Assembly: GCA_009602725.1 (NCBI GenBank)
Contig: WELB01000119.1
Coordinates: 161,646-200,395, forward strand
Reading direction: 5' to 3'
Origin: Spirogloea muscicola
Taxonomy: Eukaryota > Streptophyta > Zygnematophyceae > Spirogloeales > Spirogloeaceae
DNA: 38,750 nucleotides
Made by a program: the position numbers and the translations under genes. Of this stretch, positions 6,434 to 38,750 are shown piece by piece; position 1 is the first letter of the stretch; every line of letters begins with the position of its first letter. Below the pieces are notes generated by a model. That model ran no database searches, was not told the origin of the DNA, and worked only from the letters and a program-made list of their open reading frames with translations.

Positions 6434-9966
<3,533 letters not shown>

Positions 9967-11140: not shown

Positions 11141-11830
11141 GTCCTATTAACTGGCTAATGAGCTGGCTAAGAGGGACACTAGTACTGGAAAAGCCTTCCT
11201 GCTCATCGTGCTCTTGTTAGCGAATGCGAGCACTGCCCATGGGCGCCTGCCCTCGGGCGCAGCTAGCACAAGCGCCGTCACTGGGAGTCAGGCCAGTTGC
11301 TGTCGCCCATCACAGTGGCGGCTCGCAGCCGCCGCTGCGGTCACCTCACAGCAGCATCGCCCAGCCTTGCCCGCCTGCGCCCACCGCGAAGACCACCAGT
11401 CGTGCCTCGCTGCATACACCGTGCTGCCACCAGAGCTCGCTCGTTGCGGCTTTCGGGCCGGCCTGGCCTCTGCCGCTGCGGCTCGCCCCCAGAGCCTGCA
11501 TGCCACGCTCCCGCCATGGCCCCGCCAGCTGCACAGCGCCCCACAACGGCCAGTACAGCGGCAGCTGAGCATCGGGCGCTGCATTGCGCCAAATGCTGGC
11601 GCAGGAGTGGCGTAGGCACCCAGTTCCCCTAACCCATTTATCCCATATCGCAATGAAAATTGCGGCACGATTGCCCTCGGACTCCTGGTGCACCATGTCG
11701 GCGATGGCGGTGCCATGCCTCGGCGGCTGGCGCAGTTGAGTGGGCGAGCGCTGCCGCGCCACCGATGCCAGCGGCAGCGATTCCTGCGGTGGGTCTTGGG
11801 TGCTGCGGCGCACTGCCGTGTAGGACAGCA

Positions 11831-14800
11831 ATGGCTTCGCGCGGGCTGCCAGGCCTGCTGGCCCGCCTCCGCCTGCAGGCCGCCGTGTCCGTCGCCTGCG
11901 GCGGGAGGGTCGCTGCGCCTTGGAGGCCAACAGCGGCTGTGGGCCACAGCCGCTCCACGACAACAGCCGGGCTGGCCGACATGCCGCTGCCGCTGCAGCC
12001 GGCGGCAGCGCCCAATGGTCATACCATGGCCGCCATGGACAGGGCCGATTCTCGTCCGCACACGAGCGGCAAAGGGGACGGCCCGCCAGCGGCTGCGCTC
12101 GAGGGCAGTGTCCGGCGCGTCCGCTTTTACAGCAACGACACGGGCTACACCGTCCTCGACATCCGCGGCTTCGAGGTCGGCCACCGAGATGGCAATGGTG
12201 GCATCAGCACGCCCTCAGGCTCCCCCGACACATACACCGCGGTCGGCTACCTGGGCAACATCCGCGAGGGCCAGTCACTGCGCCTGGAAGGGCAGTGGGT
12301 GGAGAATGACCGCTATGGGCGTCAGCTCCAGGTGGTCCGTATGGTGGAGAACCGGCCGCGGTCGGAGCCGGAGATCATCAGGTTGGCATCACTTGGGCTT
12401 GAATGCTGAAGCCGAGCAATCCACTTAGAATGCACTGAGGAGTACATAGCATTTGATGTGCGTGTCAGAGTCGGTGTTTGAGGCCAGGTACTTGGAGGAG
12501 GGCGCGATTGCAGGAGTGGGGCCGCAGACGGCGAGACTACTTGTTTCAGAGTTTGGGAGCGGAACATTGGATGCCCTGGACCAGGACAATGCCATCACCC
12601 TCCTGCAGCTGGTGCAGACTTTTCCCTTCTGAACTCACACTTCTGTCAGACTCTCACCTTCGCACCTTCAGCGAACCCAGCTACTTGGAAACTCACAACT
12701 TGCAGAAAATTGAAGTGAGTTGTCCTACTGTGGTTCTTCTCAAGTCCGTAGCTCTTGCCGCGCTCAATGTGTCAGTTGCGTCTACGTAACGTGCTAAAGT
12801 CTAAAGCCTAGAGTGCCGAACATGGACAAGCTGCAAGGACTGCATGCTCCATGCCCGAAATTTGATACAGATTCATTGTGTCCCCGTCGGCCTGCAGATA
12901 AAAGGCATAGGGAAAAAGAAGGCGACAAAGATAAAGGAGGAATGGGACAAAGACAGATGGGGCAGAGCAGCTATGTTCTTCCTGCAGGAGCATGGCGCCG
13001 GCAAGCAGGCAGCCAGTCAGCTTGGTGATACAAGCTCCACTCACTGGAATGAAGTAGGCTCGCATGTTCGCAGTGTGGCCTGGCTCCAATATGCATTGGC
13101 TTGGTAAAGCTAGACTGCTTGGTAGCTCACTGATGTGCAAAAACACGCTCTTTGAATCTTGAGTAAAGTACTAAGAGTCATGTGACGAGACCAGTGGAAG
13201 TTTGATTCGTGTATTTCGGTTGCCAGCGCAAAACATATTGGCTGACTTTGATCATTCATTGCTGCTGCCATAGTCAAGAAGCACGGGAAACACACAGAGG
13301 AGTTCGTGCGACGGGATCCATGGGAAGCCTGCGACAACATCCCCGGCTGGAGCTTCCCGGCTATGGAGGAGCTTGCGCAGCGCGTGGAGGCCGAACTCGG
13401 CTTGCCCAGCCGGGCTCGCGCAGCGCTCTGTCACGTGCTCAGGTCGCGGCGCGTTGAGGGCGACTGCTACCTCCCCTGGGAGCTTCTGGCAGCCAATGTG
13501 CAGCCCCTTCTGCAGGAGCCTCCAGATGCGCCGGCGGCCTTGGATGCATGTCTGGATGACAGATTGTGGGAGCTGGTCGATCGAGGACGTTTGGTCATGG
13601 ACAGCGCTGCGGAGCAGGAGAGTGTCATAGAATGCCGTCAACCAGTGAGCAGCGACTGCCGTGTGTACCTGAGCGAGCTCCACAAGGCAGAGGTATGGAC
13701 AGCACGCCTCACTGTCTTTCACCTCCATGCATGCTCCTTCCCTTGCACGTACCTCATCAGACAGTGCCAACACACAAGTAAAGAATCTGGCTTTATTCGG
13801 GTTGTGAAGCAAGTTCCCTTGGGTCAACTTGGGCTTGTAAGCTGCAGTCTCTTCTGTGCATTGATCACCTCCTTGAGCACGTTTGCTTCAAGCTCCACAA
13901 TGTATGACAGAGGAGCTGAAGGGTTGACGTAGAGCCGTACTTGGGTCATGCTTGACCTTGTTGTGCAGTGTATTGTGGCAAGTTTGCTGCGCAGTCGAAT
14001 GCAGTCAGTGGACAAGCCGGGCCTGGAAGCGAGAGTAGACAGCTGGATGGACAGGATCGAGAGCGAAGGCGGCTTCGTCTTACTGGCGCAGCAACGACAG
14101 GCTATACAGGCTGCAGCAAGTTCCCGGGTCCTCATCCTCACAGGAGGTCCTGGGTGTGGCAAGACCTCCACCACCAAGTTCATCGTCAACCTCTGGACTG
14201 CCATGAACTTCAGGGTGTGTACTTACCTCTGCCTTGCTTGCCTAACTCCAACTTCTCTTAAACCCTTGCAGTAAACTGCAGAGATTTATCCTACTCTTGC
14301 TCAAGTGTCTAACAACTGGACAAACTGACAGCTCTCTCAAGTATATGTCAGTGCCTGGACAAGACAGCTCAAGGCTTGCAGCCTTCTGGTGAGGCAGGTG
14401 AAGCTGTGTGCTCCGACTGGTATGGCAGCAAAGAGATTGTCACAGGCAACCGAGCGGGAGGCCAAGACAATCCACAGCATGCTAAGACCCACCCCAGACC
14501 TTTCAGACACTGGCCACTGGCACTTTCAGCACGACGCAACCAACCCTTTGGAGGTAAGGATGTGAAGCTGCGCTCAAAGTACAGGCAACTTGGAGGACTA
14601 TGCAGGAATATATATCAGGCGCTCAGACATCTTCACGAAGCAGCCGCATGTAGTTTTGCTGCTTCTGGACGACCAGCCAAGCTCGAATTCAATTGGACCA
14701 TGGCAAGCGGTAGGCCATGATATAGCACCACTGGCCTGATAAGAACACTTGCACACACAGGTTGATGCCATATGTGTGGATGAGGCGTCCATGCTGGATG

Positions 14801-16800
14801 TGCAACTAGCGGCGGCCCTGATGAAGGCAACCCCGTCGTGGGCCCACCTGCTCCTGGTGGGAGACATGGACCAGCTGCCACCAGTTGGTCCCGGCCACAT
14901 CCTGCAGGACTCCATCAAGTAATCGCATCACTATGTTCGTTCACCTTTCCTGGCATTTGTCGATCACGTGCACTGAAGGTGACTGCAGGCGCTGCTGGAC
15001 TGATGGTATGCATGTCCAATGCTGTGCAGCTCAGGCAAGGTGCCAGTGATAAGGCTGAGCGAGGTCCTCCGGCAAGTGGCAGATTCGGCAATCGTCACAA
15101 ATGCTCACTCGATAAAGGATGGGGACATGCCAGACTTTGAGCGCGTCGCACCGCACAATGGCAGCTGGTGGCAGAGTGGATTGCCTCTGATGCAAGATCC
15201 GAAGCAGAGGCCAGCTTGGAAGGCCAGGAGGATTGGCAGACCTGCAGACTTCAGTGAAGAAATTGTCACTGAGTGCCTGTGGATTGAGGTGACTAGACGT
15301 CTGGACGACTACTTTGTATTCTTATCAGATGCGCATTGCACAAGTTTCAAAGGCACCTGAGAGAGGCTGCCATGTGTGCCTTCTTGCAGGTCCCCGATGT
15401 CCCAGAAGTCATCAAGACAGCCCTCCAGGAAGCGATGCAGAGCCTCTTCCCTCAGCACAAGATAGACCCCGTGAGGGAGGTCCAACTCCTCACGCCCAGC
15501 AACAAGGGACCTCTGGGAACCACAGCTTTGAACAAGGTGAGCGCTGGTCTGTCTGCATCAGAAGAACCCGCTTTGGTCTTCCAATTGAATCACCGCTTTG
15601 CCAGACTCTACCTACAAGCCTCAGGAGGTTGGGGTTGAGAGATTGCCTACTGTTGCTACAGATGCTCCAGGCTCTGCTCAACCCTGCTGCAGAAGAAAAA
15701 GCGGAGCTGCGAAAGGGGCCCAAGGACGGTGGCATCACATTTCGTGAAGGGGATAGAGTGATCCAAGTGGTACTAGAAGAACTTCTGGGCAACTAGAAAA
15801 GTCAAATCCTCTTGTTACATTGGTCACCTTGATGGATGACACCCACTTCGGTACATGTTGTAGTGGGCCATCTCGTGTCGATGAGCACTTGTACTTACAG
15901 AGTGCCCTTTGTTGCAGAAGAATGACACTTCGAGGGAGATTGTCAATGGTGACATTGGCACAGTTACCCGAGTTGATGTAGCTCAAGGAATGGTAAGGAT
16001 GCTGTGCCTCACACTGCACTGTGGCGGCCACCTCAACTGCATTCTCTATAACATTGACTAGCTGCTCATTATCTCGTGATTCCTCCCCTTACTGCTGTAG
16101 GCAGACCTTGAACTAACATGCAAGCTTCGCTGATGATTGTGCAGGTAGAGGTAACTTTCACTGGCTGTCTCCTGGTGGAGGAAACAACAGTGTCGTACTC
16201 ATCGGTCGAGCTGGATGATCTCAGGCTTGCATGGGTCAGTACTTTTGCATCTCATCTCTTGGGCCGACAGCGCTTGCTACAGGCTGCTTACAACTTGTGC
16301 AAGTGCAAGTGCGGAGTCCTACTTGCCGTAACATTTTGGCAGCTCATGCAGGCAATTACCATACACAAGTCGCAAGGGAGCGAGTACTCTGCCGTCATCA
16401 TCCCCATGTCGAAGATGCACGGAAGGAACCTCCTGAGGTCAGTCCTTCTGACTGTGCCAGACCCTCTCAACAAGTTGCATGCTTATACTCATCACACACT
16501 GTTTCCTGCATACGACTCATGACACACGATTACTTTCAGGTTCCAATTTCTCTGCTGACCTATCTTGTCGCTTGAAATCTGAAGAGCAAGCTTCTCTTTG
16601 CTAACGTGCTTGCTAGGTCTTGTCCATTTGCTTCCTTTGCTTGCAGCCGCAAGCTTCTGTACACGGCTCTTACTCGAGCTCGCAACTTGGTGGTACTTGT
16701 TGGTGCCAAAGCGCCTATTAGAGATGCCATTGGCAACTTGAACGAAAGGACACGATTCACTCACCTGAAACACCGTCTGACGGAAATCAACACTAGCTAG
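11831..16800 (+). CDS. RecD2-like ATP-dependent DNA helicase, probably organelle-targeted
   Basis: Superfamily 1B 5'-3' helicase of the bacterial RecD2 type, acting in DNA repair or recombination. Exons: 11831-12381, 12488-12611, 12706-12714, 12898-13024, 13274-13692, 13969-14214, 14398-14553, 14761-14918, 15030-15288, 15390-15536, 15662-15766, 15918-15992, 16145-16234, 16352-16437, 16647-16800; phases fit, about 901 residues. Residues 1-90 are Arg/Ala/Ser-rich with few acids, like a transit peptide. Then: RecD2 N-terminal domain (about 92-185), two helix-hairpin-helix motifs (GVGPQTA, GIGKKKA), Walker A GGPGCGKT (about 469), DEASM (about 551), GDMDQLPPVG, ITIHKSQGSEY (about 825) and YTALTRAR (about 856). 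All helicase motifs are intact. The ATG at 11831 is chosen because it opens the leader; an in-frame ATG at 11765 is an alternative. Bacterial RecD2 is usually 720-800 residues, so the surplus is mostly the leader. Confidence 0.92.
12706..12714 (+). other. Nine-nucleotide microexon (K-I-E)
   Basis: The sequence between TTGCAG and GTGAGT codes for K-I-E in phase 0. It fills a short gap between the exon ending LLQL and the exon starting IKGIGKKK, where RecD2 proteins have a few residues. Without it the frame still joins, so transcript evidence is needed to be sure. Confidence 0.5.
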
Positions 16801-18059: not shown

Positions 18060-21000
18060 TCACCAGGACGATGACGCAGATCCATTGAGAAAGAGCTGAC
18101 TATCCAGATCATGAATCCACTGGCAAATCTTGTTACAAACTGCGATTGCAGGAGCCTGTATGCAGTTGCAATGCTGTGTCAATACACATTGCTTGTATCT
18201 TCTGATATCTGATACAAAGGAGCACTATGCTTTCCTAGCTCCAGTGTGCGATGCTTTTACTACCTTATTGCAGGGCGAAACCATACCACATTACAAATGC
18301 ATCCCCAATGTAAAGTGAAGATGTGGTAACAGTGCGAACTCTTGCTTGAGAATCATGTCTATCAAGGTCAAAGAGCACCTTGTCTGATAATGAGTCGAAG
18401 GCAGCATAGAGCTCAAAGTCGTCTGTTCTCCATGCAAAAAGTACTGCAGCACAAGATTTCAATATTGCTGAGAGAGTCAGTCTATAGCGTCCATTGCATT
18501 GCCGCCTCAACATGACAAAAACGTTAGGGTGGACTGCCTGGGCGGTCTGAGGCCAGAAGACAAGAGAGTCAGCAGCACAGTGCTGATTGATACCCTACAA
18601 TTATTCTCAGCTATGATGCTCACCATGTTGATCATTACAACGATACTGCATCTTATGAGGGCCGCCACCTTGACCTTGCATTGAGATGGTCATACGCTGA
18701 TACAATCTGAATAAGCTACACAATAAGATAACGGTAGTGACTGAGTCATAGGACGTCCAGGACACCTCAGCGCAAAATGCGTCCAACTGCCTTCGGGGAA
18801 GGCTATGGCAGAAGATCGCAACAACAATTGTTCTTGCTTTGGCTCTAAGAGACTTACCACTTCTGTGCTCCTCGGCTACTCAGTATCTTTGGGTAAGCAG
18901 AAACCACGTGCTGGTTGCATCGCGTACTTCTGTAGAGGAAGTGGTACAGACCAGATGGACCTGCACCAAGCTTCCGGTCTCCCTGTTCTCCATTTACTTT
19001 CTCAATGCTTTCTGGCCCATCTGCCAATTCCTCTGGCCTACTTGTTCCACCAGCATCGCCTCGCTCCTTGCCATACATGCCACTGCTTCTACTTCTCAAC
19101 ATGTAAGGCCCCATGTATGGGCCAGCATATGCTTGTGGGCTTCTCGCATAACTCCAGTCAGATCCACCATAGATGGACCAATCAATTGACGAAGCACTTG
19201 CTCCTGCTTGATCTCTTCTTTCCATTGGCAGGTCCTCCACCCTCAGGCCACCACGTGCAACAGATGCTGATATCTCTTTGAGAACGCCTAGATCCTGTAG
19301 GGTTTGTTCTATTTTCAATCTGTCAAGATGAAACCGAATATTCACTTGGGAGCTCTTATAGCGACCTGCTAAATAACCTTAAGCACTGTTCAAATATTGC
19401 TTAACTTAACCAATTTTACACGGGAGACTGCCTCCACACCTATATGTCCATGATCTATGTGTTTCACAAGTGAAACTCAGACTGCAGTTCCAGCCTACAT
19501 CTTCTTCGCTTACACATAACACGGAGTGCTTGGAGCTTGAGAGGAGGTTTTCAACCTCAGCAACTTCTGCACGACCTGCTCTGGTTCTGATAGCAGACAT
19601 TTTACCTGCACTCTTTAAGTTGGTGAAAAGCGTCAGCATCTGTTGAGAGAAGCACCAGCACCGTTGAGGAGCTGAGGTAGCGAACATATGCATACATAAA
19701 AATGCTGGGGTTGAGCTTTGGCAGGCACACTGGAGTGAACGTTTCAGAAGACCTACACGACCAAAACAGGGTCAACAGACGACGGTAGACACTGCTTACA
19801 GGTAAGCATAGCAAGCAATTATGCATCCTTGAAACTCAGCAATTGTGTAATTCATCAGATAGCTACCCTGGTACAGGGAATACTTCACAAGACCATGGAC
19901 AACAGCAGACACCCAGAGCCAATACCGTCAATATTCAAGATCTATGTCGTCAATGTAAAGCATGCTGCTTGTGGCAAACCCTAATCGGCCTGTAAAAGGT
20001 GGCTGATACCTGAAAGCGTCAGAGGAGGACACGAAGTTTGCAATCAGCAGAATATCATCAGGGTGCATACGGCTCTTTTTGGGAGCAAGAAGACTGACGA
20101 CTTGGTTCTTTGCTAGAAGAAGCCCGTATTGCGTGTGCACTGAGGAGGCCTCTTGCAGAGCCATAGCCACTGCTTGTCGATGGGGAAAGGACAAGGGAAG
20201 GCACGTGAACGAATGAAGCATCGCTGCATAGTTCCTGCATTTTGCAAGCAACAGCAAGTAGCAGCTCAGACCAGTCTTGATGGCTTCTAGAAACTGCTAT
20301 TAACCAGAGGCTTGTCAGCAGCACTACCAGCAACAGATTTACCAGCAGCCTAGCAGGCTCCCTTATGGAGTACGTGAAGGTCTAGTGGCTATTGCAACGA
20401 AATGGGAGGAAACTTTGTTACCAGCTGAAATCGTGGATTAAGGAAGAGAATGAGTTCTCAGTGCCTCCTAACAATGGCCGCATATCAAAATTGGGGTTTT
20501 TCAAAAAACAGCGGTCCACAGCTGACGTCAAGATCATCATCACCTGCAAGTTAGATGCATTAGAATCAGGATGCCGTTAGATTAGACAGATTATACATAA
20601 GCTCTTGAGCCTTTCCCTGCAACTTCCAGGCAGACACGCTTCCTCCGCTTGAGACAGACAGAAAGTATAGTGCAATTGATGCCAAAGCTGGCGGCATTAA
20701 GTACGGACAGATTGTCATCACACCTGGGCATGCAGAAGCTCTAGTTGAGCCTGGAGAGCAATGACTGGCTCGTCCGTGGATGATATAGATACGAGATAAA
20801 CGGGGCCCTTGGTGACGAAGACAATCTGGAGTGCACCTGCAGTTACCACTTTGATTGTGTCCCCCATATTCTGCACAAAAGATATGATTGCTTGGAGGAT
20901 GGCCGCAAAGCCCGCCAGCTTGTGCTCGTCTCCATATCTGGCACCACCCTTCAGCAGACAGGAAACAATATAGGGTCGTCAAGAAGAGCACCGTCACACG

Positions 21001-23552: not shown

Positions 23553-25129
23553 TCAGCACTTGACCTCCTTCAGGCCATCCTTGAAGTAAAGGAAGGTAGG
23601 CTCAGAGGCACCCTCTTTGTAGTAGGCAAAAGCCATAGAACCCTCCAGATTCATGCTTTCTCCAACAAAGCTGCAGAAGCAGAGAATCAGGGGAATGCCT
23701 CATAAGCCAAGGAGAGTACTGAAGGCGCGCAGTGCACATGGCATGAAAGGGAGGCCAAGCCGAGCCGGTACACTGTACAGGGAATATCATCATAATATAC
23801 ACAGCTATGCAAGTAGCAGCTTCCCACGTGAGTGAATGGCACCCCGTATTGCACTGAAGTACATGCATGCATCTCAGCTTGACCTTGCACCTAAAGGATG
23901 ATGTTGTGAGCATAAGCTTTCGAAGACCGTGTCCAAAGTGGTAACATCTCAAAAGGGACAGGCACTTACAATTGAAGATCACTGAGCTTCCCCAACAAAT
24001 ACTTTGCAGCCGGTTGCACCTTTGCTTTGAAATCGTCCTGGCGGTCTGCCGGCAAGAGGGGCGTCAACTTCTGGATGTAGCCCTTGAGGTAACCCATGAA
24101 GCTTTTCTTGTCAAAAGCTGGTTGCTCCTGGCCAACAACATACCAAAAACAGGAGCACGGCAATTCAGAGGCTCTGCAAACAACCTGAGCTATGACCAGA
24201 TTGACCAGACTTGCAATGAGGCCACCCAGCATTATTGATGGAGGAAAGTAAGTGGAGCTGTTAGGGCAACCTTGTGCAGAAGCCTTGCCACGTCCTAATG
24301 GCAGCGTGCTTTACAAGTTACTATAAACACAGACCGTCAAAAGACTAATGTCAAACTACAATAAACTAGGCAAGCGAGAGCTGCCAAGCAAGCACAGGAG
24401 GGGTGGAGCCACACTGGCACTGCCCACATCTTGAAGGCCTTCGTAACGTAGTGGAGATACCAACTTCTAAGGTTTTATGACAGGATTCCATGTCACCTGC
24501 AGTCGGAAGGTATCAACGATGTCCACTACTCGTACAGCCTGGTCGTCCACACCCTCGTCCTCCTCACCGCCCTCCGCGGAGGCATTGGCGCCAATGTCAA
24601 CACTGATCGGGCCCTGGACGACCCACTGATGAAAAGTGGCAGCGGCAAAGCTCCCAAGGTGTCAGGCGAGCAATAACGCACCAACTCTGCACCACCTGCT
24701 CGTTGCTGCAGCAGCCAATTTGCATAGTGGAATTGGGCTGCTGCAATGCAGCCTCGTCCACTTGCCATAGTAGTAAAGGAAGTAGAAGGTGTGCCAGAGA
24801 GAACCAGAGGAAGACTTCCTTTCAGAAATTCGGAGCTGCTGTCTGCACCTTGCCATTGACCTCGTAGAAGATGCCGTCTTGGACCTCAGTAAGCTCGAAT
24901 GAATCGGACAACAGCTCGTCACCTGGCCAGCGCGTCCAAATGGGGAACTCGTCAGTGTCGACCTTAAGAAAGGACGCCGGACGCGGGGGTCGGGGCTGCC
25001 ATGAGGTCAGACGGCGGGAGCGCCGCCAACGCAGCGCGCCAGCTCGTGAGAGGGCCCGAGCGACGACGAGGAACAGGCGGGGACAGGCGGGGCAGGCTGA
25101 CCGGAGATGATGTCCTCGTAGATAAGCAT
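23553..25129 (-). CDS. TCTP: Translationally controlled tumor protein (TCTP)
   Basis: Small, abundant, conserved eukaryotic protein with an Mss4-like fold, linked to growth control, translation factors and TOR/Rheb signalling in other organisms. Exons (- strand): 25129-25102, 24922-24849, 24625-24497, 24127-23970, 23670-23553; phases fit, giving 168 residues, exactly the plant length. Marks: [18 protein letters not shown] at the start, [31 protein letters not shown] (first TCTP signature), [33 protein letters not shown] (second signature) and the C terminus [10 protein letters not shown]. The first coding exon is only 28 bases and ends one base into the Gly codon. Upstream lies a (CGG)n-rich stretch with an ambiguous base. 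No residue of note is missing. Confidence 0.96.
23722..23775 (+). repeat. GGCGCGCGGTGCGCATG dispersed repeat, copy 3 (diverged)
   Basis: GAAGGCGCGCAGTGCACATG, then CATGAAAGGGAGGCCAAG and GAGCC. It lies inside the last intron of TCTP, antisense to the gene. Confidence 0.7.
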
Positions 25130-25458: not shown

Positions 25459-25799
25459 GGGGCGATGCCCGGCTCCAACGCCGCCGGTTCGCTCGCACAA
25501 GTCATCCGCATGCGCCTGGCCGCATCGCTTCAACGCTCCCTTGCCCACGCCGTCCACACGCGAGCAGGCCGTGCTATGGCCGTCGCCTCTGGGTCTCGGC
25601 GGAGTGCCTCTTTCCCTGCAGCGAGCTACTCAGACCTGATGTTGCTCACTCGTGGTTACTAAGCTTTCCTCTGCCTCGTCTATGTGTTCTGCAGTGTTTT
25701 GTGGTGTAGTCCTTTTTCCGGCTCCTCTTTCTTTGGCTTTGGACAATGTCCATTCTTTTTTGGGTTGGTTTTGCCAGCCCCTCTTCTCTATGGGCGCGC
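25459..25799 (+). repeat. Repeat unit, copy 1 (about 340 bp)
   Basis: Starts GGGGCGATGCCCG, contains CGCTCGCACAAGTC and CACACGCGAGCAGGCCGTGC, the YSDLMLLTRGY-stop end and the GGCTGG..CCAGCCCC hairpin, and ends TCTATGGGCGCGC. Matches 27181-27518 nearly throughout. Confidence 0.85.
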
Positions 25800-26106
25800 T
25801 TTTCTCTATGGATGTGCTTGCCTTTGTACTTGAGGCTCCTCACTCCTTACTACTGAGTGGTCCATCCTCCCCCGTTCTGACAAAAAGCATCTTCAGGCCC
25901 CTTCGTAGCTGCTTAGCGCTTTTTAGGCCCCTCCCATCATTTGGCCCCTTCAAATCTTTGTCAACTCTTTTTCGGGCTGGCTTTTCACAGCCCTTGCCCC
26001 CATTGGGAGTGCCACTTCTTTGTACCAATTAATCTGGCCGTGCTTGCTTATTGGTACTTGGCCATTTGGCCTTCGTTCATTTCAAACACACGACCTTTTC
26101 CCATGT

Positions 26107-26165
26107 AGAGAAGGCTCGCCGTGCGCATGAAATGATAGAGAGGCCTATTCAGAACCAATACATTG
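26107..26165 (+). repeat. GGCGCGCGGTGCGCATG dispersed repeat, copy 4
   Basis: GAAGGCTCGCCGTGCGCATGAAATG, then GAGAGGCC and AGAACCAATACA. A diverged member of the short family at 11086, 22498 and 23722. Confidence 0.65.
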
Positions 26166-27180
26166 TTCTGGCAAAGCAGTGCAAAAATAGTAAGGCTACA
26201 TGAAACGAAGCCCTATGCTAAGTTGCTATTTTCTTCTGTGCTAAGTTGGCTAAGGTAGCAGTGTGACGGTAGTACCGCTTTTCCTGCTTCGAGTTATTCT
26301 GATTTGCTGTTGCTCACTCGTGGATGGTGAGCATCCATCTGCATCACTTCTTCTCTGGTGTGTAAGTTTTTCTTTCGCGGCACCGGTTTGTGGCTGGCCT
26401 TCGGATATCGTCCATTCTTTCCTGGGCTGGCTTTGCTAGCCCCTCTTTTTCTGTGGGCGAGCAAGTTCTCTAGTACCCAAGGGTGAACAAAGCTAGGACG
26501 TTAGTACCCAAAGGGTGAGCTGCGACAGCAGGGCACGCGGTCGGCCTGGCGGCCATGGCAAGGAGCGCAAGTATGTATTTCGCGGCACTGGCCATTGACG
26601 TGCACGGGCTTTTCGCAGTTGCTGGCTGGACCTCCTGCAGCGCTTCCCCTGGCCCCCTTCTCGTACTTCTGTTCATTCATTCATTCCACTTTGGGCTGGC
26701 ATTCCCAGCCCCTATCCGGGCGAGTCCTTTCTTCGCCTGCAGCGGCTTGCCCGGCAGGCCATCGATCGTCGACAGGGTCCGCAAGGGGAGCTGCCCGGCT
26801 TCAACGCTTGCCCAGGTCATCCGTATGCGGCTGTCAGTCTCTTTCCAGCATCGTCTGGCATTTTGTAGTGTTTTGTGGTGTAGTCCTTTTTCGGCCAGGA
26901 ACCCAGTCTCTCTGACCTGAGGCTGCTTAGCAGGGGTCACTGAGTGCTTCGTAGCTGCTTCGTTTCTTTTTCGGCACCTCTATCTTTGGCTTTGGACCTT
27001 GTCCTTTCTTTTTGGGCTGGCTTTGCCAGCTCCTCGTCTCTATGAGCGAGCACTGTCCAGCGCTCCCTGGCTCACGCAGTCCACTTGCGAGCAGGCCGCT
27101 CTACAGCTGCTGCATCTGGGTCTAGGCGGGGTGCATCTTTCCCTGCAGCGAGCTACTCAGACCTGATGTTGCTCACTCGT

Positions 27181-27518
27181 GGGGCGATGCCCGCCCTCAA
27201 CGCCGCCGTTTCGCTCGCACAAGTCTTCCGCATGCGCCTGGCCTTCGCTTCAACGCTCCCTTGCCCACGCCGTCCACACGCGAGCAGGCCGTGCTACGGC
27301 CGCCGCCTCTGGCTCTCGGCGGAGTGCCTCTTTCCCTGCAGCGAGCTACTCAGACCTGATGTTGCTCATGCTTGGGTACTGAGCTTCCCTCTGCATCATC
27401 TATGTGTTCTGCAGTGTTTTGTAGTGTAGTCCTTTTCTGGCTCCTCTTTCGTTGGCTTTGGACATTGTCCATTCTTTTTTGGGCTGGCTTTGCCAGCCTC
27501 TCTTCTCTATGGGCGCGC
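27181..27518 (+). repeat. Repeat unit, copy 2 (about 340 bp)
   Basis: Second copy of the unit at 25459-25799. It begins exactly where the preceding partial copy (27080-27180) breaks inside its coding end at the Arg-Gly codons, so one unit is joined in frame to the next. Confidence 0.85.
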
Positions 27519-28440
27519 ACTTCTCTTTCCAAGCTGCGAGTTACTCCGACTTGCTGCTGCTCACTCGTGTTTACTGAGCTTCCGTCGGCAGTAGTCTCAT
27601 GTCTAGCTGTGTGCTTTTAGGCGCCTTCCGGCTCTTTGGACCTTGTCCGTTCTTTTTGGGCTGGCCTTTCCCAACCCCTACCTTCTATGGGAGAGCACTT
27701 TCTTTCTAGTTGTCGGCCCGCTTGTTCTAGTTGTCGGCCCGCTTGCTCGACTGGCTGGCTGGCTGGCTGACAGCTTACTATTACAGCCCCCCTTAGCTAA
27801 CTTATTACCCCGTTACCAGGACATTTGTAAGGCCTTTCTACTTATCTCATGCGCCCCTTGTGCCTTCTCCTTACAGCCGCTCTTTCTTTTTAATGCCGCT
27901 GTACAGCCGCTTTTGATATCAGCACCCGCATTCTTGCGATAGTAAAGAATGCGCCTCTCGCCTCTTGCAGCTTACTTGCAAGCGCTCCCAAGAAGAGCTT
28001 GGGAGCACTTTCAAGCTCTCTCTGCCTCCGGGTTCCGCTAGGGCGACGTTTATCTGCCATATAGTTATTCTGATCTGCACTTGTTGACTAGAGGTTATTG
28101 AGCGCCCACTCGTAGGATTCATAAAGGGGAGTTTCAGTTTTATTGCGCCTTTCGGCCCTTTCTTTCTGCGACGGCTATCCGCCTGCTAGTTATTCCCGCT
28201 TTGATCTACTGACTAGAGGTTACTGAGAGTCCCGCTGGCTATCGACACGCATGGGGCGTTGGGCGTTTGGTCGCTCGCGCTGCTCAACTAGCTCGCCCGC
28301 CACGCTATCGTCCGCCACTTCCATGGGGAGCCAGTGGACTTTTATCCTGCAGCCGGGTCGCTAACGCAGGTGTACCGGATGCGCTTGGCCGTCTCGCAGC
28401 AGAGGTCTCTCCTTAGCTGCTGTCTTAGTACTCAGCACTC

Positions 28441-29972: not shown

Positions 29973-32900
29973 ATGGCCGCTCTGAGCTCGGTAGGATTTG
30001 CCGAGATGCTCAGGGATGGCACCTCGGTCCTTGACAGTCTCGTCCCTGCCCTGGCTTCGGCATTCTCTGTGATCCTCGTCGGATTCGCTTGCGTGAAGCT
30101 TCAGATTGTGAAGGGTGCACACAAGCAGGTGAGTAGAATCCTGTGTTCCCTGTGTCAAGCTTTGCCAATGTCATGTAGACTAGCTCATTTGAACACATTT
30201 CCCAGTTGATCTGCTTGCAAGCATGTAAATCTCAGCGTTTGCTTGCTCACAGGGAACTGGGCATCCCATAGCCGACACTTGATTGCTGCACCATTTGCAG
30301 GGCCTTTCTCTTTTCGTCACCAAGCTCGCTCTACCATGCATGTTATTCTCTGGCGTCAGTGCTCTCAACTTCAGCACTGTGGATTGGGCATTCGTGGTAG
30401 CGTCTGCAATCGGGAAGATAGGTGTTTTTGTCGTCACTGCAGGTGAGTATGCAGTGAGGTTCATCTCCAGCTTACACTTTTACGCACCTTCACATTGCAT
30501 CGATTGCAGACTAAAGCTTGACCTACTGCCTTCAACCTCTCTCTTTCAGGCATCACCCTGCTACTAGATGTTGGACAGCCTTCGGTCCTTGGAACTGCCG
30601 GTGTCCATGCGATCTTCGTCTCTCAATCAAATGACTTTGCCTTGGGACTCCCTATCATTCAGGTTTCTGATTAAATTGCCATACACCACCAACTATGCAC
30701 AAACTAGAGAAGGCTGCAGTGCCTTGCAATCTGTAAGTAGAAAGGGCACTGAAAGGCACTTGTTGCTTGCTGTTTTGGGTAGATGTGCTCTACAAGATCC
30801 GCACCATGTATATGACGGGCTGAATGCAGGTGTAGTCGGCTCAAAGGGAGACATGATCTTGATTGGCCTGTTCTGCCACCACGTGCAATTTTCACCAGGC
30901 TTTGTTTCAGAACACGCACCCAGAGTACATAGGATACCTGTTTTTGGTGGCGCCCATTTCAGTCACGTTCCTAAACCCCATCGGCTTCTTGCTCATGGAG
31001 ATGGGCACGGAGAAAGGTGAGGCTGCAGATGCAGAAAGGCCGCTTTTGGTGGAGGACACCATCAAGGAAGGGGAAGATGAGGGTGAGGACGAGGACGATG
31101 AGGACTATCACAGCCCGGATGAGGAAGATGAGGATGAGGTCGCTGCCGACGCTAGGCAACCTAGAATCCCTGCAATCATGCAGGCTGGGTGGGTGGGAAG
31201 CGGGCGGAGACCCGCGCCGAGGGTGGCAACCCCTTACCCCCGGAGAAAGCCGAGCAAGATGTGGAAGGTGGTGGCCAACGTGATAAAGACACCTGTTGTC
31301 TTCATGGTGTGCACCAAAGCCCTAGCTGTCATCAGCGGCAGTGCTCATACTGCTCGCCATGTATGTTCACACTTATGCACTCCTGGTTCTACATGCTCAT
31401 GCCCATTGACATCCCCGCAGGTCCCCATTGGCCTTGTGGCGAACTTCCTCTTTGACCACCATTTACCTCCTTACTTATTCGGCACATTCCAGGTAAGCTA
31501 GCCGTGTGCAATCTGTCTAAGGGCCTGCGTTGATAATCCCATTTGACTGCACAAAGCCTAAAACTCTGTAATTGGAACTGTAAACAGACCTTCGCCAATT
31601 CCTTCGCTGCGTTGGCACTCTTTATTTTGGGAATGTCAATAGGGGAGCAATCTGAAGCTGCCAACAAAGGGGAAGCCACACTGGGACCAACAATTACGGC
31701 ACTAACCCTCATTGCAGGAAAATGCCTCTTGCTGCCGCTGGTTATTATTGTGGTTCTCATGTATGCACGAGGTATGTGAGCCTGCGTAAGCAGAGTGGCA
31801 AGTGAGGCACTGCCATGTGGTTTTGCACGTTGCAAACATAGCTTCTGAAAGCGTTGCTGATATGTTAGTGGGCTTGTTTTTGAAGCAGACTGATCCTGAT
31901 GCCTCCATGTCTCCTTGGCAGCTGACATATCTCTGGTTATGATGGGTCTCATCTATGGATCTCTACCCTGCGCTCCTGCAACCTTCTTCTATGCATCAGA
32001 ATATGGTACTCTTTGACCCACCTTGCAAGTCCAATGGCTGAGCAGGCCTGGTACTGTCTTTTCTGCCTATGGTTTCAGCTCCTTACAGATTGAGGATTGT
32101 TGTTTGTGATTGTGGCAGGCTTGTGTACAGAGTACATGGCCATGGCAACAGTTTTGGGAACGTTCCTTTTTGCACCTTTGGTTTACTTTTTGGCACAGCT
32201 TACTTTGATGGTGATGTCAGACTACCAGCACCTTCTTGAGCAGGTCACCAAAACATGTCGCATGTCCTGTGGCCTGCACTTTCTGCAAGCCATGATTCGT
32301 TGCAGTATCTGCTGATATTGATGATGCATAAGTTATACTGTGCGAGGCATAATATAGTAGCTGGCCAGTCATCGTCTGAAAGTCTTGACAAGGTGCTACA
32401 TTTCTGACAATGACCAAGAAGTAAGTATCAGAGCCTGACCACTGCAAATTTGCCAATTTCCTCCTCAGTTCGAAGGCATCATCACAGATATGGGTACTCT
32501 TGGGGCTATTTGTGCAATCTGGACACTCTTGGCACTCTTGCTGCAAAGGACTCGGCCTCATTTGCACTTTTCAGACCATTACAAGCTGGAATCCAAGCTC
32601 CTCTGCTCAGTGGCAATTGGATGGGTGAGATGTCTAACATGAACGCCTGGACAAGCTTTGGCATGACATAGTTGTGACCTGCAAGAGATGTGGGTGAAGG
32701 CCTTGGCTTCATGAGAGTGTCAGCAGCAGATCCAGAGGCTGCCCATAAAGGCGAAGTACTTTCCTGCCACGTCCTTAATGTTATGTACAAGTCTTGCTCA
32801 GTACTCGGCTTGCATATGACACATGTTCCATGAGTTGTGACCAGGCGGCAACGTGCATTGGAAGCCTCACATGTCGGCTCCAAACCTCAAACAAGACTAT

Positions 32901-35218
32901 ATGGGCCATACAGTATATTGGAACTTTTGGTGGTCGAATGGCAGCAAGGATTTTCCTCGGTCTCATCGCATTGTGCGAAGTTTGCTGTAGCAGTCTGGGG
33001 CCAGATGCTGTGCATCCAAAGTCAATCCTTGTGCTGCTCTCAGGCTGGGCCTTGACAGCGGTGGTCACAGCCATTCCTGTGCTCCTGACAAAGACATCTC
33101 CCAGCCGCAAGACCTTGTAAGTCAGCCGGCTGCACTTGACAAGTAATTTCAACCTGAGGGAATGTCCAAGTAGACCTGGTATTCGCCTTGGAGTTTCCTG
33201 TGCGCCATGCTCTTGAGCAGGCCTGCAATCTTCTCACAAGGCTTCTCGAACATGACATGCCGCAGAATGGATTGCTGGTACCCTTACGGCAGGACCCAAG
33301 ACCTTGTGGCTGCTGTTGTCATGCTGTCCTCAGGTAGAGAGCAACTTGTCTTGCGACAACTGACATAACCCAGGAGCCTGCACAACACTTGAGTTCCTTG
33401 TGAGAAAGTAATTTTCCAGTGATCAGAGTTGACAATCTGCAAGTTCAAGGCTCTCAGTGTCTGGCAAGAACTTTGCTGTTGGGTATTGGCCCTCTGACAA
33501 AGCTTAGCCAATTGCAGCTTCTGTCATTGTGGTGAGCATCTGCATTCTCATCAAGAAGCAAGTAGCCAACTCAAAGGCCAGGGGAGAACCCGTATGTTGG
33601 GGTTCCATTCGGCTGAATTGGCGGCCTGACCACGACAGGCATTCCAACTCTGCTCCACATTTGACCTCTCATTTCTCCCAGCAGAGGCAAGTTCAGCTTC
33701 TATTTGCTGTTGCCATCTGTCAGCTTGCAAGCCTTGCGTTCACCCCTTCACACTAACTGCTACAGAAGTCGGCTCTATTTGTTGTGTTTGTCATGATTAC
33801 CAGCTTCTGAGCACCAAGAATGTTGGAAAATTTGCAGTGACATAGTTCCATCTTCACGTACTTCGGCACCCATCTCGCCTAGAGGGCGATCAGCAGAAGG
33901 TGACGTGTTTGAGGGCATAGGCCAGGCAGTCACAGAAGTTGACATTGCTGCAGAGAGCAACGTCAAACCCCCAACTCTTGCCCAGCGGCGAAATGTGGGG
34001 CTTCCGACCAGTCTCTTGACCAACACGGATACTGCTCGCTCTTCCCACCCATCTGCAGCCCCTCCCAAGAGGCATGCTCATTGAGGCATTTCTGACGCTC
34101 CAGTTCGTCTTTGCACTCGAGCTGCTTTTGTTATCCTTGACCTGCTTGACCTGCTTTTGTTATCCAACAGCATCCCTTAATTGCGCTGCTATGGCAATAT
34201 GACACTTGACTGCATAGCATGTAAGATGAGGTATGCTGCATAACGTTGTTCCAGAGTCATTACTTTGACAGTCTGGGCTTTCACTTGCTCTGGCAAGCAG
34301 ACAGGTGGCAAGTGCATGGAGATTCCGGACAGACGAGGAGGAGCAGAACATGCTGCTGGTCTACTGCCTCATTGGCCTTGCCTCTATGCTCGTTGGCTCT
34401 TCCTATTGCCTCATGCCTCCTGACGAGGTATCTGACAAAGGAGCAGATGCGCTACACCTACACTCCTCTGATCTGAGACCTGCTTGCCGATACTGCTATG
34501 GATCGACTATTACCAGTCTGCATGATGCACCAACACCTGCCTTTAAGATTGCCGATGTAGTTGACCTATCTTCTTCCTGACCCTCATTTGGTGCCCTGGC
34601 GACATGACGAATGCAAAGCTTGACCAGGCATGGAGTCATTGTCTTGTGTGTCAGACAAAGGAAGGCAGCGGAGAGATATCCACAAAACACCTGCTACTTT
34701 TGCTTGATGTTTTACTCTCATATGGGCAAGGTGCGGTCCTGTTCTTGGCATTTGGCCTGCACCCTGGACTCATCCAGCCCATTGTGGCTCTCAGAGACAC
34801 GTGGTCCAGACATCGGGCACCGATGGTAAGTGTGTGGCAAGCATGGCAGGCAAGTTTGTTGGGATGAGAAATTGCCAGGAATCTGTTTGGTCATATGGTC
34901 TACGTTGATAGTCATATGCCATATCAAAACTGCACTTGGTGCTTCCCCCAGGAGGTCCACTCCAGATGTTAGTTGTGCATATATCACCTATAGCTTCTTC
35001 TTCTGGTAGAGGGTCCCAGGATGTCTATGTATTTATCATTGGTTCATGTCCAACATACAAAAATGAGAGCACTTGACTGCGCACTCCAGGCGAAGCACTA
35101 CACAAGGTGGACAGATGTTCTTGGTGGAGAAGTCGATGACGGTGGGGCAGGCTATAGGAAGCTGTACCGGCGAGCATCATCGGCCGCAGTCGATGCCCAT
35201 CGATCTGCAACAATATGA
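29973..35218 (+). CDS. GPR155/LYCHOS-like protein: PIN-like transporter fused to GPCR-like domain
   Basis: Multi-pass membrane protein matching animal GPR155 (LYCHOS), a lysosomal sterol sensor acting on mTORC1. Exons supported by phase: 29973-30128, 30301-30442, 30550-30662, 30911-31360, 31421-31492, 31588-31771, 31922-32005, 32119-32210, 32469-32624, 32845-33116, 33266-33333, 33518-33591; then 33682-33737 and 33838-(about 33990), less sure; 34305-34427, 34655 or 34661-34825, 35090-35218. PIN-like half: LVPALASAFSVILVGF, FVTKLALPCMLF, LNFSTVDWAF, SQSNDFALGLPI, LVAPISVTFLNPIGF, TPVVFMV, ALFILGMSIG, YGSLPCAPATFFYA. GPCR-like half: IWTLLALLLQRTRP, ILVLLSGWALTAVVTAIPVL, YGRTQDLVAAVVMLSS, LVYCLIGLASML, LLSYGQGAVLFLAFGL. 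An Asp/Glu-rich loop (31060-31140) sits in the central PIN loop. A short exon between 30662 and 30911 seems missing. No DEP domain follows. Likely location: vacuole or other endomembrane (inference). Confidence 0.88.
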
Positions 35219-37037: not shown

Positions 37038-38536
37038 TCAGAGCTGGGACCCATCAGCGAGCAACAGACCCTCCAACTCTTCCCAGTACAGCTCCTCTTC
37101 GTCATCGTCCATGTAATGGACCTGCCAATACACTACGAGTGGTGATGCTGCAAAGCGCACCACACATGCTGCTGCACCATGGACCCCCACCAGGATGGAG
37201 TTGCCGAAGCTTTGTAAAATCTCAGCAGATTGTAGTAATGGAGGTCTTTTCACAGCCTACACACCACCTTCATGTCCCCTGTACACGTAGAAAGTATCAG
37301 CAGCCTCAACATAGTCGGCGAGCGGTCCCGTCAGCAAGTCATGGGGAGAATGCTGACCTTGTAGAGCTCGGCCTCGCTGTCGAACTCGACAACGGTGCCC
37401 TCAAAGGGCTCGTCGTCAAAGGTCTTAGACAGCCTGCTTCCTACGAGCGCCGCGCCGGGCCCTGCCGAGGCCAAGGTCGGAGGCGCCGCCGCCGCGGGCT
37501 TGCCGGCGGCTCCATGGCGCTTGGGTATTCGGGGCCCCTTCTTCTGCCTCGTCGCCTTGGTCGCCGCAGCGCTGCTGTCGTCACGGTGGACGTGCTCGCC
37601 CTTCTTCTGCCTCGCCACCTTCTTGGCCGCCACGGCGCCGCCATCCTGGTCGACCAGGCCCTCAATCGTCGGGCCCGACGCCATGGCCACGTACGTCCCC
37701 GCGCTCTTGCGCTTGGCCGGCCGCTCCAGCATGGTGATCGGGCCCAACTCTTGCGCCTTCGGCCTCCGCTTCACCCTGCCGCTGGTACGCCGAGCCGGGC
37801 CCCCTGCCGCCGGCGAAATCGTCTCCTGACCCTTTGCTTCGTGGTCCCCACCACTGGCCTTCATCCCATCTCCGCGTGCCATGCCAGACAGTGGCACCTC
37901 CTGCAGCTCCGTGGGCTCCGCCTTCTGAGTTTCGCCAGTGGCCATCAGCAGCTCGTCCATGCCCTTGGTCCGCGGTGGCACCGCAGCCGCCTCCCACTTC
38001 AGCCCGTGTCCCATGTCCTGCTCGCCCAGTGCCGCCGCCGGAGCCTCCTCGCCCGCTTCTCCCCCGCCAAACGGCAGAGCCGTCGACAACGGCGGCGGCT
38101 CTGCGGCCTTGCCCGCCTCATCTCTGACGCTCGCCAGCATCACCTCCAGAGCCTTGGCGGTGAACGGCAAGAGGCTCGACGGCGGCGACGCCTCCTGGCC
38201 GCCGCTGTCGGCCGCCGGCGGCTCCTCAAGAGCCTCACGCGGCCGCTCGGCCGCCGGCTCCGAGCCTTCGGATATCCGAGCGGCCGCCGCTTGGGCGCCG
38301 TTGCCATTGCCAGGGTCTGCCGGCACCACCGCCACGACCGTCGTCGTGGTCGTCGTCCTCCGGCGCACGATCCTGGCCCTGGCGTCCAGCCGCGGCGGCA
38401 GCGTCAGCCATGACCACGACTTGACGAGACGCCGGCGAGCTAGAGCTGCAGGGGGGTCCCTCACTTGACGGCCTTCCCGTCGGGCCGGGCCTCGGGGGCC
38501 CCGGCGGCCACTGGCTCCTTCGCCAACGCCACGGCG

Positions 38537-38577
<41 letters not shown>

Positions 38578-38750
38578 TCCAGCTCCAGCTCCTTGCTCTC
38601 GCTCGGCCTCCGGCACCAGCGTCGGCTCCAGCTCGTGCCATTCCAGGTCCTCCTCGTCGCCGTCCTCGTACCGCACCTGCCGCCGCCGCCGCCGCCGCCG
38701 CCGTCGCTAACGCCTCAGTGCGCCGAGCGCCACGGCGTGGCCGCCGCGGC
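37038..38750 (-). CDS. Tudor-like domain protein, partial (5' end off window)
   Basis: The visible part has two related Tudor-like modules. The first is only half seen: exon 38676-38465 opens VRYEDGDEEDLEWHELEP, which must continue a strand coded off the window. A long disordered linker follows, rich in Ala, Glu, Pro and Lys, with SGRVKRRPK (AT-hook-like) and two Lys-rich RQKKG boxes. The second module is whole: LVGSRLSKTFDDEPFEGTVV...ELYKV ending an exon at 37358, then VHYMDDDEEELYWEELEG in the last exon 37121-37038. Such modules occur in plant and algal chromatin proteins (for example beside PHD/DDT domains) and read histone or DNA-associated marks; that role is inferred. The join between 38465 and about 38420 is unresolved: AA|GTGAGG is a good donor, but no acceptor keeps both phase and the linker frame cleanly, so a frame error or another exon layout is possible. 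Confidence 0.6.
38536..38580 (-). repeat. GCC/GCG triplet tract coding for poly-Ala
   Basis: A near-pure GCC run in the Tudor-like gene gives about a dozen Ala residues directly after the first module. A second CCG tract (38680-38706) lies in the intron just before that exon. Confidence 0.85.

Follow-up and report, generated by a model that had tools for sequence, protein, structure and literature searches.

A LYCHOS (GPR155)-like gene joining a PIN-type transporter to a seven-helix bundle in the streptophyte alga Spirogloea muscicola

The DNA analysed here, hereafter the window, is a stretch of 38,750 nucleotides from Spirogloea muscicola (contig WELB01000119.1 of assembly GCA_009602725.1, positions 161,646 to 200,395 of the forward strand). 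At window positions 29973–35218 on the plus strand lies a single 16-exon open frame with a product of 880 amino acids, which we compare with LYCHOS (GPR155), the animal hybrid of a PIN-like transporter and a seven-transmembrane (7TM) bundle resembling a G-protein-coupled receptor (GPCR), which signals cholesterol to growth control. An initial annotation, made from the sequence letters, had proposed one exon chain resembling both LYCHOS halves in a green-lineage genome; a match in the PDB, collinear helices and a contig bearing a light-harvesting complex (LHC) gene, all described below, bear this out. Its outer coordinates turned out to be the ATG and the stop of the frame, and the motifs it had listed recur in the same order (LALPCMLF at aa 61, SQSNDFALGLPI at 124, LVAPISVTFLNPIGF at 149, SGWALTAVV at 542 and YGQG at 804). 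Thirteen of the 15 introns are GT-AG and two are GC-AG, with the frame kept across every junction.

The PIN-like half takes up the first eight exons. Exon 1 (29973–30128) supplies the ATG and the first transmembrane helix (TM1), with P25 aligned to human P44, and its GTGAGT donor and frame are kept in a second copy of the gene, presented below. Exon 2 (30301–30442) encodes TM2 and TM3 with the motifs LALPCMLF and NFSTVDW and has CAG/GTGAGT sites. Both the second copy and the human alignment were used to place exon 3 (30550–30662; the TM4 region, with SQSNDFALGLPI) and exon 4 (30911–31306), which carries LVAPISVTFLNPIGF in TM5, an acidic central loop and the start of TM6. The rest of TM6 (exon 5, 31421–31492), TM7 and TM8 (exon 6, 31588–31771) and TM9 (exon 7, 31922–32005) were set by second-copy comparison. 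Exon 8 (32119–32243), with TM10 and with F398 aligned to human F352, ends this half; the phase 0 intron 8 (32244–32468) joins it to the next and has diverged by 13.4% between the copies, against 14.2% over all introns.

The 7TM half begins in exon 9 (32469–32624), which encodes TM11, DMGTLGAICAIWTL and the start of TM12. Exon 10 (32845–33116) continues from the rest of TM12 to TM14 and includes SGWALTAVV, while exon 11 (33221–33333) holds a loop with RMDCWYPYGRTQ, which would be lumenal by analogy with the human protein, and the start of TM15. The rest of TM15 and the start of the TM15-16 loop lie in exon 12 (33518–33686), followed by a GC-AG intron whose GCAAGT donor and frame are kept in the second copy. 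Exon 13 (33838–34071) continues the TM15-16 loop; it has the weakest donor (AG/GCATGC), and its divergence between the copies is 3.5%, compared with 15.9% and 18.3% in the adjoining introns. TM16 lies in exon 14 (34301–34427) and TM17, with SYGQGAVLFLAFGLHPGLI, in exon 15 (34655–34825), the latter placed by the second copy, the human alignment and helix comparison. Exon 16 (35090–35218) encodes the C-terminal tail and the stop, and occupies the place of the DEP domain of human LYCHOS while being unlike DEP.

Several other exon boundaries were tried. An exon 4 running to 31360 was rejected, as the 54 bases 31307–31360 contain compensating indels and shift frame between the two copies; the shorter exon was adopted because it restores KTPVVFM-VPIGLVANF opposite human QNPIVFM-VFIGIAFNF and raises the Pfam Mem_trans match from 60 to 66.5 bits. 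Second-copy comparison also led us to drop model B, in which exon 12 ended at 33591 and exon 13 began at 33812, and an exon 14 starting at 34305, whose acceptor is lost in that copy. Model B, with a product of 875 aa, had been the query for the first PDB phmmer search, the PDB search with the 7TM half alone, the first Pfam search and the six-frame genome search. The least certain junction of the final model is that of exons 13 and 14 (GC donor at 34071 to 34301). Telling against it is the unusual occurrence of GC-AG introns twice in succession (donors at 33686 and 34071), although both donors are kept in the second copy. A stop codon stands directly behind the exon 13 junction in both copies, and an end of the gene at this point retains a small residual probability; the strong constraint on exons 14 and 15 and their resemblance to human TM16-17 argue against it.

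The second copy was found by a six-frame protein search (E 0.01) of the 153-Mb genome in 471 contigs, which gave 32 exon matches on two contigs only, C119 (that of the window) and C19. In the C19 copy all 16 exons are intact, every exon and frame is kept, and identity is 95%. Over 879 codons the copies differ at 41 amino acids, with an overall ratio of non-synonymous to synonymous divergence (dN/dS) of 0.13; exons differ at 5.3% and introns at 14.2% of sites. By part, dN/dS is lowest in the PIN half (0.07), stands at 0.09 in TM16-17 (aa 740–838, exons 14 and 15 combined) and at 0.23 in the 7TM half, and rises to 0.39 in the TM15-16 loop (aa 630–739) and to 0.71 in the last exon, a short segment of 42 codons. 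Purifying selection acts on both halves; on the other side of the balance, the silent-site difference of the two copies is just 0.17.

An intact syntenic second copy is also strong support for one gene. An in-frame ATG (M432) early in exon 9 would suit the view that a PIN-like gene and a separate, adjoining membrane-protein gene have been taken as one. We consider this very unlikely: both copies have GT-AG sites at the join intron, which is of phase 0 and has diverged like other introns, and the human alignment is ungapped across the join.

Synteny of the two copies extends over window 11.4–25.2 and 29.5–36.4 kb, and the duplicate block, compared over window 11363–36408 and C19 830601–857600, has main pieces of 84–91% DNA identity. 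Inside it, at 25459–28390, is a cluster of imperfect direct repeats with units of 63–192 nt, perhaps mobile or satellite DNA, where duplicate-block matches are scattered and non-collinear. Raptor, G alpha, GRAS sets and one Mem_trans set are triplicated in the genome; the syntenic block, together with these genes in threes, looks like whole-genome multiplication. The GRAS genes and the triplication suggest Zygnematophyceae, a closer placing within the streptophytes than the 'probable green alga' of the initial annotation.

Chlorophyll-binding exons are plentiful in the genome (68 matches), and an LHC gene lies on C19. For an Lhcb exon, the best 60 of 99 PDB matches are headed by the 620-residue LHCI-2 chain 9vfj, which has two matching stretches; next come 8htu, 7xqp and 8c29 (342 to 332 bits), which we take to be moss and conifer chains, ahead of 6kac (320 bits), presumably from Chlamydomonas. 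Since both copies of the LYCHOS-like gene sit in one syntenic block, and one contig carries an LHC gene, we regard the gene as native and as having been duplicated along with the surrounding chromosome segment. A survey view of GPR155 as holozoan might suggest that animal or protist DNA had contaminated the assembly, but this is scarcely credible when the contigs that bear the two copies measure 0.40 and 1.15 Mb and the second has the LHC gene; we regard it as refuted by that gene and the synteny. A long open frame near the gene, on the minus strand at 37334–38749, has a weak match to a plant-type PTM/DIR17-like Tudor domain, which also speaks against contamination, though it is below the curated cut-off.

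We compared the protein with known structures and families. Human LYCHOS takes the top 12 places in a PDB search, at 2.1e-48 by phmmer with the first model and at 2.8e-49 with a two-copy profile. The next match, auxin efflux carrier component 8, stands at 0.001 with the first model, and with the two-copy profile at 0.81, amid chance matches to AP-2 mu. Among the PINs compared, those with solved structures, none is as near to the N-terminal half as LYCHOS. The refined protein matches Pfam Mem_trans at 2e-18 (66.5 bits); a DUF3487 match at E 1.8 was dismissed as chance, and NCBIfam yields only an auxin efflux subfamily at 50.6 bits, below its cut-off of 246. Separate Mem_trans loci exist in the genome, on contigs C25, C326, C203, C128 and C15. 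Scans of GTDB and IMG/VR contigs, prokaryotic and viral respectively, returned 50 and 36 stretches with the pattern and no relative.

Identity to human LYCHOS is 28.2% (185 of 656 aligned residues), divided between 117/313 in the PIN-like half and 68/343 in the 7TM half. It is highest in TM1-5 (43.9% of 148 residues) and TM6-10 (31.5% of 162), then falls to 19.8% in TM11-15 (172 residues), 16.7% in the loop (90) and 23.0% in TM16-17 (74). Homology of the first half to LYCHOS is beyond doubt, and that of the second half is, to judge from the sequence comparisons, very probable. The latter relation is accepted mainly because of collinearity, shuffle tests and helix order.

Collinearity appears in the two-copy profile match to human LYCHOS, which crosses the join and continues to aa 553, covering exon 9 and the greater part of exon 10. 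The human chain up to residue 725 outscores its own PIN part by 14 bits (178.2 against 164.0); in the PDB search with the first model a comparable gain is seen for the longer chain (168.3 for 8wr3 against 154.3 for the 378-residue 9jbh), and with the two-copy profile the gain is only about 5 bits (171.1 against 166.2). The Smith-Waterman score of the 7TM half, 76, was reached by none of 2,000 full and none of 2,000 block shuffles, and in a repeat by one of 5,000 full and none of 5,000 block shuffles. For TM16-17 alone, 4 and 2 of 2,000 shuffles reached the score; with the corresponding helices from the second copy, 1 and 11 of 2,000 did so. When algal TM11-17 are paired with the human helices in all 5,040 possible orders, the same order gives the highest sum (232; mean 144, standard deviation 18), the segment limits having been set with the alignment already known.

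A number of results weigh against homology of the second half. Searched alone against the PDB at E 10, it did not recover LYCHOS, and it matches no Pfam family. BLASTP with composition adjustment gives E 0.029, and phmmer scores the match to the human 7TM part at 2.1 bits; hhalign assigns a probability of 1.6% (control 0.1%), an uninformative value from profiles of effective depth 1. In the repeat, the TM16-17 score was reached by 7 and 21 of 5,000 shuffles, and TM12, TM13 and TM16 match their human counterparts weakly (22, 21 and 28). Hydropathy misses TM4 in the alga; in human LYCHOS it misses both TM4 and TM7, giving eight plus seven segments and a false one in DEP. The weak stand-alone scores in the PDB, hhalign, BLASTP and phmmer comparisons are what would be expected if the second half were made of unrelated helices that resemble human TM11-17 through hydrophobic noise. 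Such an origin is nonetheless very improbable, as the block shuffles preserve local hydrophobicity and none of 5,000 reaches the score, the true helix order ranks first, and swapped-half control comparisons were null.

The initial annotation had staked its reading on a profile similarity of the exons at 32469–34825 to GPR155. This similarity is present in the whole-protein match, which extends past the join as far as aa 553, and is missing when the second half is searched alone, with neither LYCHOS in the PDB nor any Pfam family recovered. Of the Mem_trans and GPCR-like regions that it proposed to look for, Pfam recovers the former (2e-18), the 7TM region matching no Pfam family, and hydropathy shows nine plus seven segments, with TM4 unseen. 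Most likely the protein has 17 helices, in a 10-helix PIN-like bundle (about aa 20–424) and a 7-helix bundle (about aa 425–832). Judged by its sequence, the architecture is LYCHOS-like: the loop between TM15 and TM16 is long, and the DEP domain is replaced by a short tail. That the gene belongs to the LYCHOS (GPR155) family is highly likely.

Pfam detects no DEP domain in the protein, and its tail is unlike the human tail; the six DEP matches in the genome are all on contigs other than C119 and C19. In mouse GPR155, according to a 2022 IJMS survey (PMC9330825), DEP is found in Variants 1 and 5. Because these mouse variants imply DEP-less forms, we treat the missing domain as a variant and not as exclusion from the family. 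Raptor and G alpha were found in the genome, each above cut-off at three loci. An exon-wise genome search scored two Rag candidates and gave no match, but when run with Mem_trans it failed to list either copy of the LYCHOS-like gene; for IML1 and NPR2 it gave no candidates, with models that gave no match in any control. The failure of this search to find the LYCHOS-like gene itself weakens the Rag and GATOR1 non-detection. That result nevertheless agrees with two reviews, which describe RAG and GATOR1 as lost from the green lineage (PMC5745459; PMC9664231). The human GATOR1-Rag route to TORC1 is doubtful here.

We favour a LYCHOS-like, ligand-gated transceptor with a different output, because of the analogy with human LYCHOS, and assign this reading, identity and mechanism taken together, a probability of roughly 0.6. 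In the human protein, as set out in two reports, sterol lies at the seam between the halves, indole-3-acetic acid (IAA) in the PIN fold, and GATOR1 on the TM15-16 loop (PMC11574030; PMC12056583). By analogy, the algal protein would reside in an endomembrane or the plasma membrane; a ligand, held either in the PIN-like bundle or at the seam, would change the 7TM bundle, which would in turn signal via the TM15-16 loop. Its partner would be different from GATOR1 and might be the G alpha of the organism. This sensing mechanism, taken by itself, is tentative, with odds somewhat short of even, and the 'vacuolar sterol or auxin-like sensor' of the initial annotation is speculation.

The protein may instead act chiefly as a carrier, moving auxin or anions like other members of the PIN/AEC superfamily, with a 7TM half that is only a scaffold or dimerisation module. 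The PIN-like half is indeed the better conserved (117/313 against 68/343 identities; dN/dS 0.07 against 0.23). However, TM16-17 are constrained (dN/dS 0.09), and human LYCHOS is reported, in the passages of PMC12056583 on this point, to bind IAA but probably not to carry it; data of two groups conflict on IAA transport by the human protein (PMC11574030). We consider the carrier rather unlikely.

LYCHOS-type hybrids are not confined to animals, and the one described here probably works differently. According to the portions of an eLife 2025 survey (PMC12716839) that bear on distribution, GPR155 was detected only in Metazoa and close relatives and arose in the holozoan ancestor. The same portions give chlorophytes and seed plants as the Viridiplantae proteomes, thresholds of at least 30% identity and at least 70% coverage for a search of EukProt (993 species), and, when nothing was recovered, a fallback 7TM hidden Markov model search of the listed proteomes. 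A relative with 28% identity could escape that survey because of the 30% rule, though other queries may differ. In the part of the 2022 survey concerned, Mem_trans followed by class-B 7TM and DEP is recorded in Stramenopiles, Alveolates and Rhizaria (SAR) and in Metazoa (PMC9330825). The passages on GPR155 and algae in four papers (PMC11982790, PMC12716839, PMC9330825, PMC9333335) mention no green-lineage PIN-7TM hybrid, and prior mention elsewhere is possible.

Taken at face value, these two distributions, GPR155 in holozoans alone in the one survey (PMC12716839) and the three-domain order in SAR and Metazoa in the other (PMC9330825), speak for horizontal transfer from a holozoan or SAR donor into the streptophyte line after the fusion had formed, with DEP then lost. 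One syntenic block holds both copies, so that any transfer predates that duplication, and 28% overall identity to the human protein does not suggest a recent event; we hold transfer to be possible, though it falls well short of even odds. A reading that combines an older origin with G alpha coupling is, as a whole, a still longer shot: the PIN-7TM fusion may predate the plant-animal split, its first form being GATOR1-free, and streptophyte algae may have kept it as an endomembrane receptor that links the binding of a ligand in an auxin-carrier fold to a GPCR-like bundle and the plant G alpha. If true, such an ancient fusion with G alpha coupling would give the plant side a genuine receptor of the GPCR type. 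Comparison with the algal gene is a natural way to test which part of LYCHOS senses. The gene also brings together a PIN fold and a GPCR-like bundle in a lineage for which PMC11195488 calls the existence of GPCRs contentious.

Elsewhere in the window, pieces of a RecD2/YrrC-type helicase lie in separate open frames at 11657–16519 (OB_YrrC, HHH_RecD2, AAA_19, UvrD_C_2); this family is best known from bacteria. A glycosyl hydrolase family 1 protein (7746–9005, plus strand), a MON1/FUZ-type longin protein (19931–20296, minus strand) and TCTP (23969–24310, minus strand) are likewise represented by pieces.

Among known systems, the Mem_trans, class B 7TM and DEP proteins of SAR are likewise a fusion outside animals; they are said to carry DEP, lie outside the green lineage and were compared by their description in the passages concerned (PMC9330825). 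Plant PIN/PILS auxin carriers (AEC family, Mem_trans) belong to the same transporter superfamily, as the Pfam match at 2e-18 indicates, and among proteins of solved structure PIN is not the closest relative of the algal protein, with auxin efflux carrier component 8 at 0.001 or 0.81. PINs are not known to have a 7TM half. With human LYCHOS (PDB 8U54 and others) the alga has in common a PIN-like half of 10 helices, continued without a gap by seven more that keep the human order, as well as the landmark motifs, the long TM15-16 loop and equivalents of F352 and P44. It differs in having no detected DEP domain, in an acidic loop of about 80 residues within the PIN half, in the sequence of its TM15-16 loop and in an overall identity of 28%. 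Human Y57, F43 and E48 are replaced by F, V and S in the alga; F352, P44 and Y57 are presumably sterol-site residues of human LYCHOS.

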